DNA of 64,000 bases from Treponema sp. (GCA_009781635.1 WQXU01000007.1:47724-111723); one strand, 5' to 3'; counted from the stretch's first letter, positions 2,778-41,370 are shown. Notes: a model not told the origin generated them from the sequence alone. Translations and numbers: made by a program.

Positions 2778-4985
2778 TTACTGCCTTGTCCACACTGAAC
2801 TAGAACTTACTGGAGCAGTCGTGGTATATGTTCCTGGGGTTCCGTTGACAGGATCATCTACGTAAAATTTTGCTCGTAAGTCACCTGGGAATGATCTTAC
2901 ATCAAAATTACTCGATGTAATTGTACCTAATGTAACGCTTGTTAAATCAGTACAACCACTGAATGCATTACTACCGATACTCGTTACACTGTCAGGTATT
3001 GTGATACTCGCCAAACCAGCACAACCATAAAATGCGCTATTGCCAATACTCGTCACGCTTTCAGGTATTGAAATGCTCGTTAAGCCAGTGAAATAGGCAA
3101 ATGTTAAATTTTCTATACTCGTCATGCTATTGGGTATGGATATACTTGATAAGCCAGAACAATTGGCAAATGCTAAATTGCCTATACTCGTCACGCTGTC
3201 AGGTATTGTGATACTTGTTAAACCTGTACAACCGAGGAACGCTCCTCCACCAATACTCGTCACGCTGTCAGGTATTATGATACTTGTTAAACCAGTACAA
3301 CCAGCAAATGCCCCATTCCCGATACTCGTCACGCTGTCGGGTATTGTGATACTATTCAAATTGGTATAATAATAAAATCCTTCATCGCTTATCGCAATTA
3401 CCGGCAGATCGTTGTAGACAGCTGGTAAAAATACATCAGCGGCAGTTGCCAAACCTCTTGAAATCGAATATGCAGTTCCATTGTTTATCAGCATATATGA
3501 CAGTCCTGGTGTCTTAAGTACCAGAATGTTTTCTTTTCTCCAAGTCTGATTTTCTCCCGGGTTATCCATAACATATGTCCCTGCCCCTCCATCCTCAGCA
3601 AAGAACACTTCGCGTAAGTTTCCGGGAAATGAGCTAATACTAAAATTCGCCGAGTTGATAGTACCCAATGTTACACTCATCAAGCTAGTACAACCATAGA
3701 ATGCTCCACTGGATATATTTATTACACTGTCGGGTATTACAATACTTGTCAGATTAGAACAATCTCTAAATGCCCAATCACCTATGCTCATTACGCCGTT
3801 TTGTAAGGTAACATTTGTCAAACCTGTACAACCCCAGAACGCTCTTTCATCGATAATTGAGACACTATTGGGTATTGTAATGCTAACTAAGCCTGTACAA
3901 CCAAAAAATGAATATTCTCCAATACTTGTCACATAGTCGGGTATTATACTGTTCTTGCATCCAAGTACTAACATATTATCCGATAATCGTATTATACAAT
4001 TTCCTTCACTTTTATAAGTTGTATTACCACTATCTACAGTGATGCTTGCCAAGCCGGAGCAATCTTCGAACGCTCTACTAGCAATACTTGTCACACTGCC
4101 GGGTATTGTAATGTTCATCAAGCTGGAGCAGCCAGAGAATGCCCTATTGCCGATACTAGTTACGCTGTTGGGTATTGTGATACTTGTCAAACCTGTGCAG
4201 CCAAAGAACGCACTACTGCCGATACTAGTCACGCTGTCGGGTATTGTGATGTTCGTCAGGTTTATGCACCCGAAGAATACTCCATTATTGATACTAGTCA
4301 CGCTGTTGGGTATTGTGATATCTGTAAAGCTAGTGCAACCGTAGAACGCATACTGGCCAATACTCGTTACACTGTCGGGTATTGAAATGTTCGTCAAGCT
4401 GGAGCAACCCCAAAACGCATCATCACCGATACTAATCACACTATTAGGAATAATGATGCTTGTTAAGTTGATACATTTAGCGAATGCCGAATAGCTAATA
4501 CTAGTCACGCTATCAGGTATAATAATACTTGATAAACCAATGCAATTGGCGAATACCCCAGAGCCGATACTAGTCACACTGTCAGGTATTGTGATATCTG
4601 TTAAACCAGTGCAATAAAAGAATGCGCCTTCACCAATACTAATCACACTGTCAGGAATAATAATGCTTGTCATCTCGACATACCCGGCAAATCCGCCTTT
4701 GAGTGCATTAAAATCCGGCACGCCATCAACACTCCAAATTATTGTATCTAAATCAATTGAACCTATCTCAGTTACCGGTAACCCATTGTAAACAGCTGGA
4801 ATTACAACCACTGCGGCAATTTCCGTGCCTCTTGAAACTGAATACGCCGTTCCATCATTTATAAGTGTAAAAGCTAGTTCTGGTGTTGGGGATTGAAATG
4901 GAGGTTCTGGTTCGGAACAAGTTGTAACCAATAACACGAAGATTACCGTTAAAATTCCAATTAAATAAATTTTTTTTGTTTTCAT
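2778..4985 (-). CDS. BspA-type leucine-rich-repeat (LRR_5) surface lipoprotein
   Basis: Lipobox VTTCSE; many 23-aa repeats GCTGLTSITIPDSVTSIGxxAF. Confidence 0.9.
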   Translation of the reverse strand: MKTKKIYLIGILTVIFVLLVTTCSEPEPPFQSPTPELAFTLINDGTAYSVSRGTEIAAVVVIPAVYNGLPVTEIGSIDLDTIIWSVDGVPDFNALKGGFAGYVEMTSIIIPDSVISIGEGAFFYCTGLTDITIPDSVTSIGSGVFANCIGLSSIIIPDSVTSISYSAFAKCINLTSIIIPNSVISIGDDAFWGCSSLTNISIPDSVTSIGQYAFYGCTSFTDITIPNSVTSINNGVFFGCINLTNITIPDSVTSIGSSAFFGCTGLTSITIPNSVTSIGNRAFSGCSSLMNITIPGSVTSIASRAFEDCSGLASITVDSGNTTYKSEGNCIIRLSDNMLVLGCKNSIIPDYVTSIGEYSFFGCTGLVSITIPNSVSIIDERAFWGCTGLTNVTLQNGVMSIGDWAFRDCSNLTSIVIPDSVINISSGAFYGCTSLMSVTLGTINSANFSISSFPGNLREVFFAEDGGAGTYVMDNPGENQTWRKENILVLKTPGLSYMLINNGTAYSISRGLATAADVFLPAVYNDLPVIAISDEGFYYYTNLNSITIPDSVTSIGNGAFAGCTGLTSIIIPDSVTSIGGGAFLGCTGLTSITIPDSVTSIGNLAFANCSGLSSISIPNSMTSIENLTFAYFTGLTSISIPESVTSIGNSAFYGCAGLASITIPDSVTSIGSNAFSGCTDLTSVTLGTITSSNFDVRSFPGDLRAKFYVDDPVNGTPGTYTTTAPVSSSSVWTRQ

Positions 4986-19830: not shown

Positions 19831-22800
19831 ATGAATGAAAAAAACATTTCTTCGGGAACAGTTGCAGAACTGCGAACACAGGAGTTTATTTCAAAGTTCT
19901 CAGTGCCGTTTACACAGCCTTATGATTTTGACGAGTTGATTGACAATGCGCTGTATGAATTGCGCGATTTTACCAAAACAGACAGAGCCATCATTCTGGA
20001 ATTTCAAGTTGATGGTTCTTTACTATGCACTTACGAGAGTGTTATTAACAAGGAAACCCCAAAAGTACTGGAGCGCTCACTTACCTATGATATGATGAAA
20101 CCTATTCTTGATGAGGCGGACAACACCGGCTGCTTCTACGAAAAACAGGCATCGCGGTATTTTCAAAGATATCCCACAACCGATTTAAACGAAAAGAGCT
20201 TTTGTTACATACCATTAAAAATAGGCGGTAACAGAGCCGGATACCTTGTGTTTTTCACAATGTTCAAGCAGGCAAACTGGGCAGAAGGCGAATTCCGGCT
20301 CGCTACAATGGCAGGTTCGATCATCGCCGGCGCTTACTCCAGAAAAAAAAGCGAAGAGATTCTTCATGCAGCTAACGAAGCGGAATTACGCACGCAGGAA
20401 TTTATGTCAGAGTTCTCGGTTCCATTTACACGCCCTTATGATTTTGATGATTTAATTGATAATGCGCTGTATGAATTGCGCGATTTTACCAAAACGGACA
20501 GGGCTATTGTACTGGAATTACAGCAGGACGGTTCGCTGCTTTGCACACATGAAGATGTTATTAATGAAAAAACACCGAAAGTAATCGGGCGATCACTCGC
20601 TTTCAAAATGATGAAACCGATCCTTGACAAAGCGGACAGAATCAGCTGCTTCTACGAAAAAGCAGCTTCCAGATTCTTTCAAAGATACCCATCCGCCGAT
20701 TTGGGAGAAAAAAGTTTTTGTTACATTCCTCTGACAATCGGCGGCAGCAGAGCCGGATATCTTGTCTTTTTTACAATGTTCGAAGAAGCAAACTGGGCGG
20801 AGGGAGAATTCCAGTTAGCCACAATGGCAGGTTCGATCATCGCAAGCGCGTATTCCCGTAAAAAGAGTGAAGATTTTTTAATCGCAGCTAACGAAGCGGA
20901 ATTACGCACGCAGAAATTTATATCGGAATTTTCCGTACCGTTTACACAATCCTATGATTTTGACGAATTGATCAACGATGCGCTTTATGAGTTACGTGAT
21001 TTTACCAGCACAGACAGAGCCATCATCCTGCAGTTTCAGCCGGATGATTCGCTTCTTTGTACCCATGAAGACGTTATCAACAAACAAACTCCAAAAGTAT
21101 TGGGGCGTTCACTTAGCTATAAAACCATGAAGCCTATTTTTGACAAAGCGGACAGAACAGGCTGCTTTTATGAAAAAGCGGCGTCACGTTTTTTTCACAG
21201 ATACCCGGATACCGATTTAGGCGAAAAAAGTTTTTGTTACATACCGCTTACAATCGGCGGCAACAGGGCAGGCTATCTTGTATTTTTTACAATGTTCGAA
21301 CAGGCAAACTGGGCGGAAGGCGAGTTCCGTCTTGCAACAATGGCGGGCTCAATTATTGCAGGCGCTTACTCAAGGAAAAAAACCGAAGATGTTTTATTTG
21401 CGGCAAGAGAAGCGGAGCTTCGTACGCAGGAATTTATTTCAAAGTTTTCTGTACCTTTCACCCAGCCTTATGACTTTGAAAAATTAATTGATAACGCGCT
21501 TTTTGAACTGCGTGATTTTACCAAAACAGACAGAGCAATCATTCTGGAATATATGCCTGACAATTTCCTGCACTGTACCCATGAAGACGTTATAAACAAT
21601 GAAACTCCAAGAGTATTGGGACGATCTCTGGAATACGAAGTAATGAAACCGATCCTTGATGAAGCAAACTCAATCGGCTGTTACTACGAAAAAGCGGCGG
21701 AGAAAGTTTTTGAAACACATCCCGGCACATCGCTGGAAGAAAAAAGTTTTTGCTATATTCCGCTCATGGTAGAAGGCACACGCGCAGGATACCTTGTTTT
21801 TGCCACAACATTTGAGCAGGCGGATTGGGCGCAGGGAGAGTTCCGTCTTGCAACAATGGCAGGTTCAATCCTTGCAGGAGCTTTTTCAAAACGCAAATCT
21901 GAAACCGCACTTAGAGAAGCGACACAAAAAGCTCAGCAGGCCAACGAAGCAAAGAGCCTATTCCTGTCCAACATGAGCCACGAAATACGCACGCCCATGA
22001 ACGCCATTATCGGAATGACTTATATCGGAAAATCTGCCGCTGATTTACAGCGCAAAGATTATTGCTTGTCAAAAATAGAAAACGCTTCGCAGCATTTGCT
22101 GGGTGTCATTAACGATATTCTGGATATGTCAAAGATTGAAGCAAATAAACTTGAATTATCATATGAAGAGTTTGAATTTGAAAAGATGCTTCAGCGCGTA
22201 GTTAACATCGCCGCGTTCCGCGCTGACGAAAAGAATCAAACAATTTCTGTACATATCGATAAATCAATACCGCGCACACTTATCGGCGATGACCAAAGGC
22301 TTGCGCAGGTAATTACAAATCTGCTTGGCAATGCAGTCAAGTTTACGCCCGAAAACGGTTCTATCATTCTTGATACCCGTCTTATCAAAAAAGAAGAAGC
22401 TCCGTTAAATGCAACGCAGTTTCCCGCGCAAAGTGCAACGCAGTTCCCCGCGCAAAGTGCAACGCAGTTCCCCGCGCAAAGTGCAACGCAGTTCCCCGCG
22501 CTGGAAGACGAGTACACTATACAGGTCACTGTTACCGACAGCGGTATAGGCATAAGTCCCGAACAGCAAAAGAAACTTTTTAAATCATTTCATCAGGCTG
22601 ATCTGGAAACTACACGTAAGTTTGGCGGCACAGGACTTGGGCTTGCTATTTCCAAAAGCATTGTGGAAATGATGGGCGGAAGCATCGGGCTTGAATCCGA
22701 ACTTGGAGAAGGATCAAAATTCTTTTTTACATTCAAGGCAAAACGAGGGATAAAAAGCATTCCAAACCTTTCCGAAATCGGCGTTAGCTGGGGTAATGTA

Positions 22801-23748
22801 TCCATAATGGCAATAGATGATGATCAATCTGTCCTTAATTATTTTACCGATGTTTTACACGGGTTTGGCAAGAAATGCGATATTGCTTTAAGCGGACAGG
22901 AAGCGCTGGCGCTTGTCGGCGTTAACGGCATGTACGATATTTATTTTATTGACTGGAAAATGCCGGATATGGACGGCATTAAACTGGCAAGCGAATTAAA
23001 AGCAAAATCCAAATCACCTGAACATACGATCATTATAATGATCTCCGCCGCCGAATGGAGCGGTGTTGCAGCCGATGCAAAAAAAGCAGGCGTTGATAAG
23101 TTCCTGTCCAAGCCGCTTTTCCCCTCTGCAATCGCCGATGCAATAAATGAGTCGATTGGAATAAACCGCACACAAGAAGAAGAAAGAGATGATTTCATGC
23201 ATATTTTTAAGGGATACAAAATCCTTTTGGCGGAAGATGTTGAAATCAACCGTGAAATAATTGAAGTATTGATAGAACCTACAATGCTCGAAATGGATTG
23301 CGCAGAAAACGGTTTAAAAGCAGTTGAGATGTTTGAGAAATCTCCGGATGCCTACGATTTGATCTTAATGGATGTACAAATGCCGGAGATTGACGGATAT
23401 GAAGCAACCAAAAGAATCAGAGCGATTGAAAAACAACTTATGGAAAAAAAGAGCACGAGTTTTACCGCATCTTGCAACGAAGTTCCCCGCGCATCTTGCA
23501 ACGAAGTTTCCCGCGCATCTTGCAACGAAGTTCCCCGCGCAAATTGCAACGCAGTTTCCCGCGCTGGTGAAACCCGAAGCAATAATAGAGATTTGCGCAA
23601 GCAAATTCCTATTATTGCAATGACAGCTAACGTTTTCCGTGAGGATATAGAGAAGTGCTTTGAAGCAGGAATGAACGGTCATATAGGTAAGCCTGTAGAT
23701 ATCGAAGAATTTATAAGTACGCTGCAAAAGTATCTTACCAAAGAGTAA
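19831..23748 (+). CDS. hybrid histidine kinase with four tandem GAF-like repeats, HisKA, HATPase and two REC domains
   Basis: Four about 170-aa repeats beginning AELRTQEFxSxFSVPFTxPYDF; NMSHEIRTPMNAIIGM; FGGTGLGLAISK; two receiver domains (IDWKMPDMDG, LMDVQMPEIDG). Confidence 0.9.
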   Translation: MNEKNISSGTVAELRTQEFISKFSVPFTQPYDFDELIDNALYELRDFTKTDRAIILEFQVDGSLLCTYESVINKETPKVLERSLTYDMMKPILDEADNTGCFYEKQASRYFQRYPTTDLNEKSFCYIPLKIGGNRAGYLVFFTMFKQANWAEGEFRLATMAGSIIAGAYSRKKSEEILHAANEAELRTQEFMSEFSVPFTRPYDFDDLIDNALYELRDFTKTDRAIVLELQQDGSLLCTHEDVINEKTPKVIGRSLAFKMMKPILDKADRISCFYEKAASRFFQRYPSADLGEKSFCYIPLTIGGSRAGYLVFFTMFEEANWAEGEFQLATMAGSIIASAYSRKKSEDFLIAANEAELRTQKFISEFSVPFTQSYDFDELINDALYELRDFTSTDRAIILQFQPDDSLLCTHEDVINKQTPKVLGRSLSYKTMKPIFDKADRTGCFYEKAASRFFHRYPDTDLGEKSFCYIPLTIGGNRAGYLVFFTMFEQANWAEGEFRLATMAGSIIAGAYSRKKTEDVLFAAREAELRTQEFISKFSVPFTQPYDFEKLIDNALFELRDFTKTDRAIILEYMPDNFLHCTHEDVINNETPRVLGRSLEYEVMKPILDEANSIGCYYEKAAEKVFETHPGTSLEEKSFCYIPLMVEGTRAGYLVFATTFEQADWAQGEFRLATMAGSILAGAFSKRKSETALREATQKAQQANEAKSLFLSNMSHEIRTPMNAIIGMTYIGKSAADLQRKDYCLSKIENASQHLLGVINDILDMSKIEANKLELSYEEFEFEKMLQRVVNIAAFRADEKNQTISVHIDKSIPRTLIGDDQRLAQVITNLLGNAVKFTPENGSIILDTRLIKKEEAPLNATQFPAQSATQFPAQSATQFPAQSATQFPALEDEYTIQVTVTDSGIGISPEQQKKLFKSFHQADLETTRKFGGTGLGLAISKSIVEMMGGSIGLESELGEGSKFFFTFKAKRGIKSIPNLSEIGVSWGNVSIMAIDDDQSVLNYFTDVLHGFGKKCDIALSGQEALALVGVNGMYDIYFIDWKMPDMDGIKLASELKAKSKSPEHTIIIMISAAEWSGVAADAKKAGVDKFLSKPLFPSAIADAINESIGINRTQEEERDDFMHIFKGYKILLAEDVEINREIIEVLIEPTMLEMDCAENGLKAVEMFEKSPDAYDLILMDVQMPEIDGYEATKRIRAIEKQLMEKKSTSFTASCNEVPRASCNEVSRASCNEVPRANCNAVSRAGETRSNNRDLRKQIPIIAMTANVFREDIEKCFEAGMNGHIGKPVDIEEFISTLQKYLTKE
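22411..22500 (+). repeat. 24-bp minisatellite array 1 (about 3.75 copies), in-frame
   Basis: gcaacgcagttccccgcgcaaagt repeated; encodes ATQFPAQS repeats. Confidence 0.95.
23467..23564 (+). repeat. 24-bp minisatellite array 2 (about 4 copies), in-frame but in a different reading frame
   Basis: tgcaacgaagttccccgcgcatct repeated; encodes SCNEVPRA repeats. Confidence 0.95.
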
Positions 23749-40041: not shown

Positions 40042-41370
40042 CTATTCTATTGCTTTAATTATGTCTGGATTCACACCATAAAAACTCCAGATAGTTTTGT
40101 ATGCATCAACACTGCCTGCCGGAACAAAAATTTGCATATATAGATTATGATGTGAACCAATCGCTGGCGGCATTGCGGCAAGTATCGTTATGCTCGTTAA
40201 GCTGGAGCAACCAAAGAACGCATAATCGCCAATACTCGTCACGCTATTGGGTATCGTTATGCTCGTTAAGCTGGAGCAACCAAAGAACGCATAATCGCCA
40301 ATACTCGTCACGCTATTGGGTATCGTTATGCTCGTTAAACCAGTGCAACCATAGAACGCACTATTAGGAATATTATCCCCGCCTGTGATAACAACTGTTT
40401 TTAATGATGTTGGAACATCATAATTGAATAAATTATTTCCTAACTCTACATCAAGAAATGGTATCGTTATGCTCGTTAAGCTGGAACAACCAAAGAACGC
40501 ATAATCACCAATACTCGTTATAGGTACATATTCACCAGCATACAAATGATAAGCGGGTATATACACATCACCGCTGTCTACAGTTCCTCTTATGACGGTA
40601 AAGCCAGATGAAGGATCAAATACATATTCAAGTCCGGCTGTACCGGTTGCATATGAAAAAATACGGGTTTGTTCAAAAGTGCATGCTGAATATTGGCAAT
40701 GTCTTGTCTCTACTCCGTCAACTGTTTCAGTGGGAACTTGTGTTACAACCCATTCACCCCAGTTGTGGGCAGCATGCTGTATAATCCGTGTTTCTGATTG
40801 CGAACTATGATATATACAGGTTCTTGCTTCCAGACCGTCTGTTGTTTCTGTTAAAGGAATTGATACTGCCCAATTACCCCAGACATGCGCGTCAGGGTCT
40901 ATTGGAACACTGCGTGTTTCTCTATGAGAAGAGTTATGTGAGCACATTCTTGTTTCAACCCCTGTTGATACGCAGGTTGGACTTGTTGTCCGGAACCATC
41001 CTCCTCCCCATCCCCATGAGCAAGTGTGATTAAGCGCTATTATTATCCGTGTTTCTGTATGCGAACTATTATGCATGCAGGTTCCTGTTTCAAGGCCGTC
41101 TGTCGTTGCTGTTACAGGAATTGTTACTACCCAATTACCCCAGACATGCGCGTCAGGGTCTACCGGTACAAAACGTATTTCGGTATGCGAAGCATTACCC
41201 GCGCATATTCTTGTTTCTATGCCTGCTGTTATGCAGCTTGCGGAAGTTGTTACTGTCCAATCACTCCAGTCGTGCGAATGATTAATCTCTTCCAGATCAC
41301 AAGCGGAAAGGGCCATGGCGATTATTGATAAAATAACAATAGTTATAACCCATCTTCTTTTATTTTTCAT
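40042..41370 (-). CDS. lipoprotein with W-G-W Ig-like repeats and C-terminal LRR_5 repeats
   Basis: Lipobox ALSACDL; repeated HVWGNWVVTIPVTATTDGLETGTCMHNSSHTETR; IPNSVTSIGDYAFFGCSSLTSIT. Confidence 0.85.
   Translation of the reverse strand: MKNKRRWVITIVILSIIAMALSACDLEEINHSHDWSDWTVTTSASCITAGIETRICAGNASHTEIRFVPVDPDAHVWGNWVVTIPVTATTDGLETGTCMHNSSHTETRIIIALNHTCSWGWGGGWFRTTSPTCVSTGVETRMCSHNSSHRETRSVPIDPDAHVWGNWAVSIPLTETTDGLEARTCIYHSSQSETRIIQHAAHNWGEWVVTQVPTETVDGVETRHCQYSACTFEQTRIFSYATGTAGLEYVFDPSSGFTVIRGTVDSGDVYIPAYHLYAGEYVPITSIGDYAFFGCSSLTSITIPFLDVELGNNLFNYDVPTSLKTVVITGGDNIPNSAFYGCTGLTSITIPNSVTSIGDYAFFGCSSLTSITIPNSVTSIGDYAFFGCSSLTSITILAAMPPAIGSHHNLYMQIFVPAGSVDAYKTIWSFYGVNPDIIKAIE
40183..40345. 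repeat. 69-bp perfect tandem repeat encoding LRR units
   Basis: tatcgttatgctcgttaagctggagcaaccaaagaacgcataatcgccaatactcgtcacgctattggg repeated at 40183 and 40252, third partial. Confidence 0.9.

Follow-up and report, generated by a model that had tools for sequence, protein, structure and literature searches.

A hybrid histidine kinase of Treponema sp. (GCA_009781635.1) contains two separate tandem arrays built from one short DNA unit, which raises the question of what this unit is and how it came to lie twice in the same gene. The kinase, with HisKA, HATPase_c, two receivers and GAF domains in Pfam, lies in a window of 64,000 nt (WQXU01000007.1:47724-111723), which is the whole stretch of DNA that was analysed. 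TRF placed repeats of period 24 at 22410-22501 (3.8 copies, 98% matches) and at 23466-23564 (4.1 copies, 92% matches), and the 20-mer TGCAACGMAGTTYCCCGCGC occurs eight times in the window, four in each array, and never in 100 shuffles. In the kinase ORF, array 1 is read as (ATQFPAQS)n and array 2, in a different frame, as (SCNEVPRA)n. Repeat search, 20-mer count and ORF agree with the preliminary description of this DNA, which had proposed one 24-bp unit in two arrays of a single histidine kinase, read in different frames. The coordinates are collected in Table 1.

Table 1. Features of the host kinase and of its two arrays (window coordinates).
Feature	Position	Strand	Remarks
GAF-repeat hybrid histidine kinase (host gene), 1305 aa	19831..23748	+	Open through both arrays
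Presumed decayed target of array 1, CCGTT	22402..22406	+	Presumed; GCGCA in G017 and G021
Array 1	22407..22502	+	Four 24-nt units, 96-bp insert, ATPase-domain loop
Target triplet GCA of array 2	23467..23469	+	Already in the empty orthologue, G008 (L301)
Array 2	23470..23565	+	Four 24-nt units, 96-bp insert, receiver 2
Proposed guide triplet TGC, array 2 unit 1	23473..23475	+	5′ foot of mini-hairpin; complements target GCA and unit-end GCA
Mini-hairpin AAC(GAA)GTT, array 2 unit 1	23476..23484	+	Stem-pair covariation A-T to G-C
Unit-end GCA	23491..23493	+	Proposed second cleavage site, also the next unit's target

Both arrays lie in the domains to which they had been assigned beforehand: array 1 in the HATPase domain, with 'VKFTPENGSIILDTRLI' on one side and 'YTIQVTVTDSGIGIS' on the other, and array 2 in the second receiver, directly ahead of 'IPIIAMTANVF'. 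In the solved kinase chain 7p8e the first two segments are separated by ~70 residues, so the loop that holds array 1 takes insertions elsewhere too. The units of array 1 have the form N3 + TGC AAC GCA GTT YCCCGC GC[A/T]; the N3 linkers of array 2 are, unit by unit, TCT, TCT, TCT and AAT, and its last unit carries the GCA loop of array 1, as had been noticed. Directly after array 2 there is an inverted repeat in coding sequence (23579-23618; 18-nt arms, 89%, 4-nt loop). Also in the window are 69-bp coding-type tandem repeats (2938-4670 and 40182-40360), leucine-rich in look and BspA-like by eye, which are unrelated to the 24-bp unit.

The kinase gene is not the only place where the unit occurs. 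Pattern searches of the window's genome counted 27 copies, distributed in seven arrays on four contigs, and none of the reversed pattern. Matches were found in 22 of 100 relatives, nearly all of the same genus, with ~130-137 copies in the congener G007, and the reversed pattern again gave no match in copy-bearing genomes; the unit is thus dispersed, in agreement with its proposed mobility. The few matches outside the genus were single, had one or two mismatches and were close to chance. Among 84,980 species genomes scanned, those with matches were almost only Treponema MAGs, apparently insect-gut isolates by their names (Crp329, Emb289, Co191). Matches in rumen Treponema (L064, L090 and L105) were attributed to chance: the peptide GEDRFMEWKLQRSSPRKTKDG is common to the three, which therefore look like an ordinary conserved gene. 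We found no exact match of the unit in IMG/VR, and a literature search by sequence and by topic retrieved nothing relevant on it. As far as these searches reach, the 24-nt element belongs to one genus of gut treponemes. In G000, three arrays in both orientations lie within 6 kb of one signalling cluster (L363, G000:C6:3500-10950), hosted by one solute-binding/SpoIIE-type protein and two paralogous DUF6272 proteins.

Comparison with orthologous kinases gives the size of the insertions. All six of those examined lack both arrays, so the two peptides are not conserved in orthologues, and compared with the insert-free genes each array corresponds to exactly 96 bp of extra DNA, in a register left uncertain by the shared GCA. 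The empty site of array 2 reads gccGCA/GGTGAAAC in G008 and accGCA, 96 bp, GGTGAAAC in the window; that of array 1 reads gaaactGCGCAgggagac in G017 (L300) and G021 (L303). In G007, a YgiQ-like protein and FolC are each 24 bp longer than the empty orthologous site, QueH has a 24 bp insert at GCA and a B12/radical-SAM-type protein has a 48 bp insert at GCGCA, while the FabD and Der sites are too diverged in sequence for an exact insert length. The aspS gene of G010 contains a unit with the triplet TCC (aaaGCGGA/AACTCCAGCAAAGCTTCCCGCGGA/ctactcg); 21 of 28 aspS orthologues are exactly 24 bp shorter, and ten of these have GCGGA at the site.

The targets preceding insertion at empty sites were GCGCA, GGGCA, GCA, GCGCA and GCGGA, and as a rule the unit went in directly 3′ of a GCA that was already there, in many cases as GCGCA (consensus cRCA). 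The single-site profile at positions -6, -5 and -4 from the guide shows G or A in 52 of 53, C in 48 of 53 and A in 37 of 53; single-copy sites often match only two of the three target positions, which may be due to decay or to loose specificity. A copied target as the origin of the NNN linker was rejected, since the bases that follow the target in empty sites are not those of the linker. The preliminary description had considered the junction CCCGCGCTGG a defined right boundary. This junction does close both arrays, but it is no boundary: most copies end in GCGCA, followed by any sequence, and the GG of CCCGCGCTGG is host DNA in the empty orthologues. What is defined is the target (R)CA on the left side and, where the unit ends, GCGCA.

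These sites bear on the origin of the arrays. At one orthologous site there are five copies in G000 and one in G021, and this variation suggests that slippage or unequal exchange may act on the arrays. Tandem growth by slippage may thus occur, but a separate origin of ordinary slippage minisatellites in each gene, merely similar to one another, is already refuted and highly improbable, because the same 20-mer lies at dozens of unrelated sites, mostly in single copies (45 of the 53 sites analysed in G007), and these sites are empty in relatives. Dispersed single copies also distinguish the unit from an ordinary VNTR or minisatellite, which is locus-specific.

The unit can be parsed as NNN-TGC-AAC(GNA)GTT-YCCCGC-GCA, with a hairpin stem of 3 bp, and with its target written out it reads GCA-NNN-TGC-AACGAAGTT-TCCCGC-GCA; TGC complements two GCA triplets, the target on the other side of NNN and the one at the unit end. 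We examined covariation in 70 distinct genome/unit rows from a search of the genus in which the tested positions were left free. Guide position 2 and end position 20 formed Watson-Crick pairs in 58 of 70 rows (33.7 expected), as did positions 5 and 11 of the stem in 56 rows (35.7 expected), with p<5e-5 by shuffling for each pair, values that are inexact because the rows are related and not phylogenetically independent. Controls with the partner slid by +/-1 showed no covariation. Several genomes show changes of guide and end, which go in three directions and give the sub-families TGC/GCA, TCC/GGA and TAC/GTA, and one TTC/GAA. Likewise, the external target of first or single copies was GCA in 39 and GGA in three cases for TGC units, versus zero and five, respectively, for TCC units (Fisher 4e-5). 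It is therefore well supported, at the level of sequence, that the external target follows the guide. In a G000 kinase with five TGC units, there is a second array of 24-nt period (L015, G000:C29:12517-12561; TCCCAGCGAAGCTTCCAGGGA, SPSEASRE repeat), with guide TCCC, end GGGA and an AGC(GAA)GCT hairpin, possibly a further sub-family with a 4-nt guide.

The unit resides mainly in genes. ORFs of 200 aa or more hold 43 of the 53 sites in G007, i.e., 81%; for GCA positions taken at random from these loci the figure is 86%, so that genes are hardly avoided. By Pfam, the hosts include EngA/Der, an HflX-type GTPase, MnmA, RNase HII, QueH, ArgJ, a FabD-type acyltransferase domain, a Mg-chelatase/ComM-type protein and an ABC ATPase. 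The 43 in-ORF sites use all six frames about equally (10/9/7/6/6/5), and in 22 of them the element is on the gene's own strand; since insertions are of 24 or 24n bp, the genes stay in frame. Each frame gives a different peptide (ATKFPA, CNEVSR, LQRSFP, ARETSLQ, CAGNFVA and RGKLRC) and therefore it is the DNA, not the peptide, that is conserved, as also follows from the exact 24-bp multiples at sites that align well, together with the near-equal use of frames. The 196-aa enzyme encoded by queH of G007 (L073) has two insertions in different frames, LRGKLRCK at its start and CAGNFVAR in mid-protein.

A peptide module selected for its function in signalling proteins would agree with the location of most arrays of the window's genome in signalling genes (kinases, a SpoIIE-type protein and DUF6272 proteins). 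Nevertheless, the six peptides are about equally frequent, their host enzymes are unrelated and orthologues lack them, which leaves this explanation with hardly any probability. Frame neutrality, for which selection had been suggested, does exist, but it is intrinsic to a fixed 24-nt unit: with TTT or TCT as the linker, for example, the tandem consensus has no stop in any of the six frames, a property found by chance in 4.5% of composition-matched shuffles, so selection for it is plausible but unproven. Avoidance of stop codons by the NNN linker in codon register (0/31) was not retained as evidence, the reasoning being circular: open frames had served to call the sites.

We propose that the arrays are copies of a dispersed, guide-targeted, frame-neutral 24-nt mobile element with an IS200/IS605-like single-strand mechanism, which we consider probable, if by no means certain. 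Comparison of sequences shows dispersal, insertion of exactly 24n bp, the identity of the target, the use of six frames and the covariation of TGC with both end and target; mobility and the target rule are well supported, whereas we infer the enzymology. TGC, at the hairpin's foot, would serve as a DNA guide and pair both with the target and with the end of the unit. A trans-acting enzyme of HUH type (Y1-like) would excise a single-stranded unit of roughly 24 nt and insert it 3′ of a matching target, adding exactly 24 bp. The unit end would recreate the target; with its own target at its end, each unit could receive a neighbour and arrays could grow, perhaps with slippage as a further contributor. 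The inserted peptide would have no conserved role, and insertions would persist in loops that can accommodate eight more residues.

IS608 inserts precisely 3′ of TTAC, a target that is retained, and each of its hairpins has on the 5′ side a guide with which the cleavage sites pair; a change of guide changes the target (PMC5934647). Similarly, the hairpin of the 24-nt unit has at its foot a guide that complements the target, as indicated by sequence covariation, the unit is found 3′ of a short retained target (the GCA, GCGCA and GCGGA of the empty sites), and guide and target change together. In contrast to IS200/IS605 elements, it has no internal or linked transposase and no coding capacity of its own, a single hairpin serves both ends within 24 nt in total, and the guide is a triplet, not a tetranucleotide. 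By analogy, then, the unit would work like IS200/IS605 ends, although the lack of a linked transposase keeps it outside the family.

We identified no transposase for the 24-nt unit. Within the genus, 10 of 17 genomes that carry the unit have Y1 (PF01797) genes, as do 8 of 23 that do not carry it; the well-covered carriers in which PF01797 was not found include G014, G021 and G022, and the unit is absent near the Y1 genes inspected in G000 and G007. Around 50 G007 loci contained no convincing half-units of an autonomous parent with split left and right ends. GC skew showed no replication-strand bias (23/50) and neighbouring copies were weakly concordant in orientation (27 vs. 15, p=0.09), both comparisons being of low power. 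The mechanism stays a proposal because no enzyme was found, the link to Y1 genes is poor and no strand bias was seen.

One alternative is that a resident REP-associated Y1 transposase (RAYT) moves the unit, which would then be a member of the REP/REPIN family. Genomes G000 and G007 each have one single-copy RAYT-like Y1 gene, the REP plan is a hairpin with a 5′ tag (PMC3733652, PMC3116915), and the unit is likewise a short hairpin repeat with a high copy number per genome. However, the RAYT flanks of G000 carry a different repeat (GTAGTGTCGTTA...CATGCCTACACCACATAT) and no TGCAACGAAGTT, the flanks of other RAYT genes carry still other repeats, the unit being missing there in G000, G007 and others, and several carrier genomes have no PF01797 match. 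Moreover, the unit has no GTAG/GGAG tag and no inverted doublets, and is mostly intragenic. On account of these flanking repeats and of the carriers with no PF01797 match, RAYT was rejected as the cognate enzyme, and we regard this alternative as improbable. The RAYT-like Y1 gene at L120 (G000:C6:110522) has GTAGTGTCGTTA...GTCATGCCTACACCACATAT repeats on both sides, apparently an unrelated REP family of that genome.

The main rival to the proposed mechanism is templated or RNA-mediated insertion, by which a repair polymerase or reverse transcriptase would copy a donor through 3-5 nt of microhomology (GCA/GCGCA), with no dedicated transposase. Target and unit end do have 3-5 nt in common, no enzyme was found, and movement via RNA has reportedly been suggested for cyanobacterial small dispersed repeats of similar size. 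By itself, however, this process does not predict a fixed length of 24 nt, the constant NNN spacing between target and guide or the covariation of the hairpin, and it appears rather unlikely.

Other known repeats resemble the single-strand element proposed here in part. Rickettsia palindromic elements are palindromes of 105-146 bp (PMC2229807). The parallel drawn with them in the preliminary description holds as an analogy only, that of selfish DNA in frame within conserved protein genes, since size, palindromic form and sequence differ: here there are 24 nt, a 3-bp stem and no long palindrome, with tandem copies and a defined target. The small dispersed repeats (SDR) of Nostoc and relatives are said to measure 21-27 nt, in the work of Elhai and co-workers of 2008, and reportedly lie inside heptamer repeats, minitransposons or HIP1 sites. 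As described, they share with our unit the size class, compensatory changes in the hairpin, dispersal, restriction to one clade and lack of coding capacity, but differ in host phylum, probably in sequence, and in that the 24-nt unit forms exact tandem arrays, is inserted within genes in all six frames and shows covariation of guide and target. Cyanobacterial SDRs are also cited in PMC3116915. Integron attC core sites read RYYYAAC and GTTRRRY, and were dismissed because the unit has TGCAAC and GTTYCCC.

The interpretation given in the preliminary description is, as a whole, largely supported, and neither of the two findings that it named as refuting was obtained. The guide-target rule and the residence in genes in six frames are new features among very small mobile repeats and, at 24 nt, the element would be, if our proposal is true, among the smallest mobile elements known or proposed in bacteria. 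Instead of shunning genes, it lives in the coding sequence of essential enzymes. This also calls for caution in annotation, since the tandem peptides of these proteins are parasitic DNA rather than protein motifs. Target choice seems to occur by base pairing, judging from the sequence comparisons, and the natural swaps of guide and target make DNA-guided transposition testable outside IS608. Lastly, through this element conserved proteins may acquire new segments of eight residues, in any of six readings.
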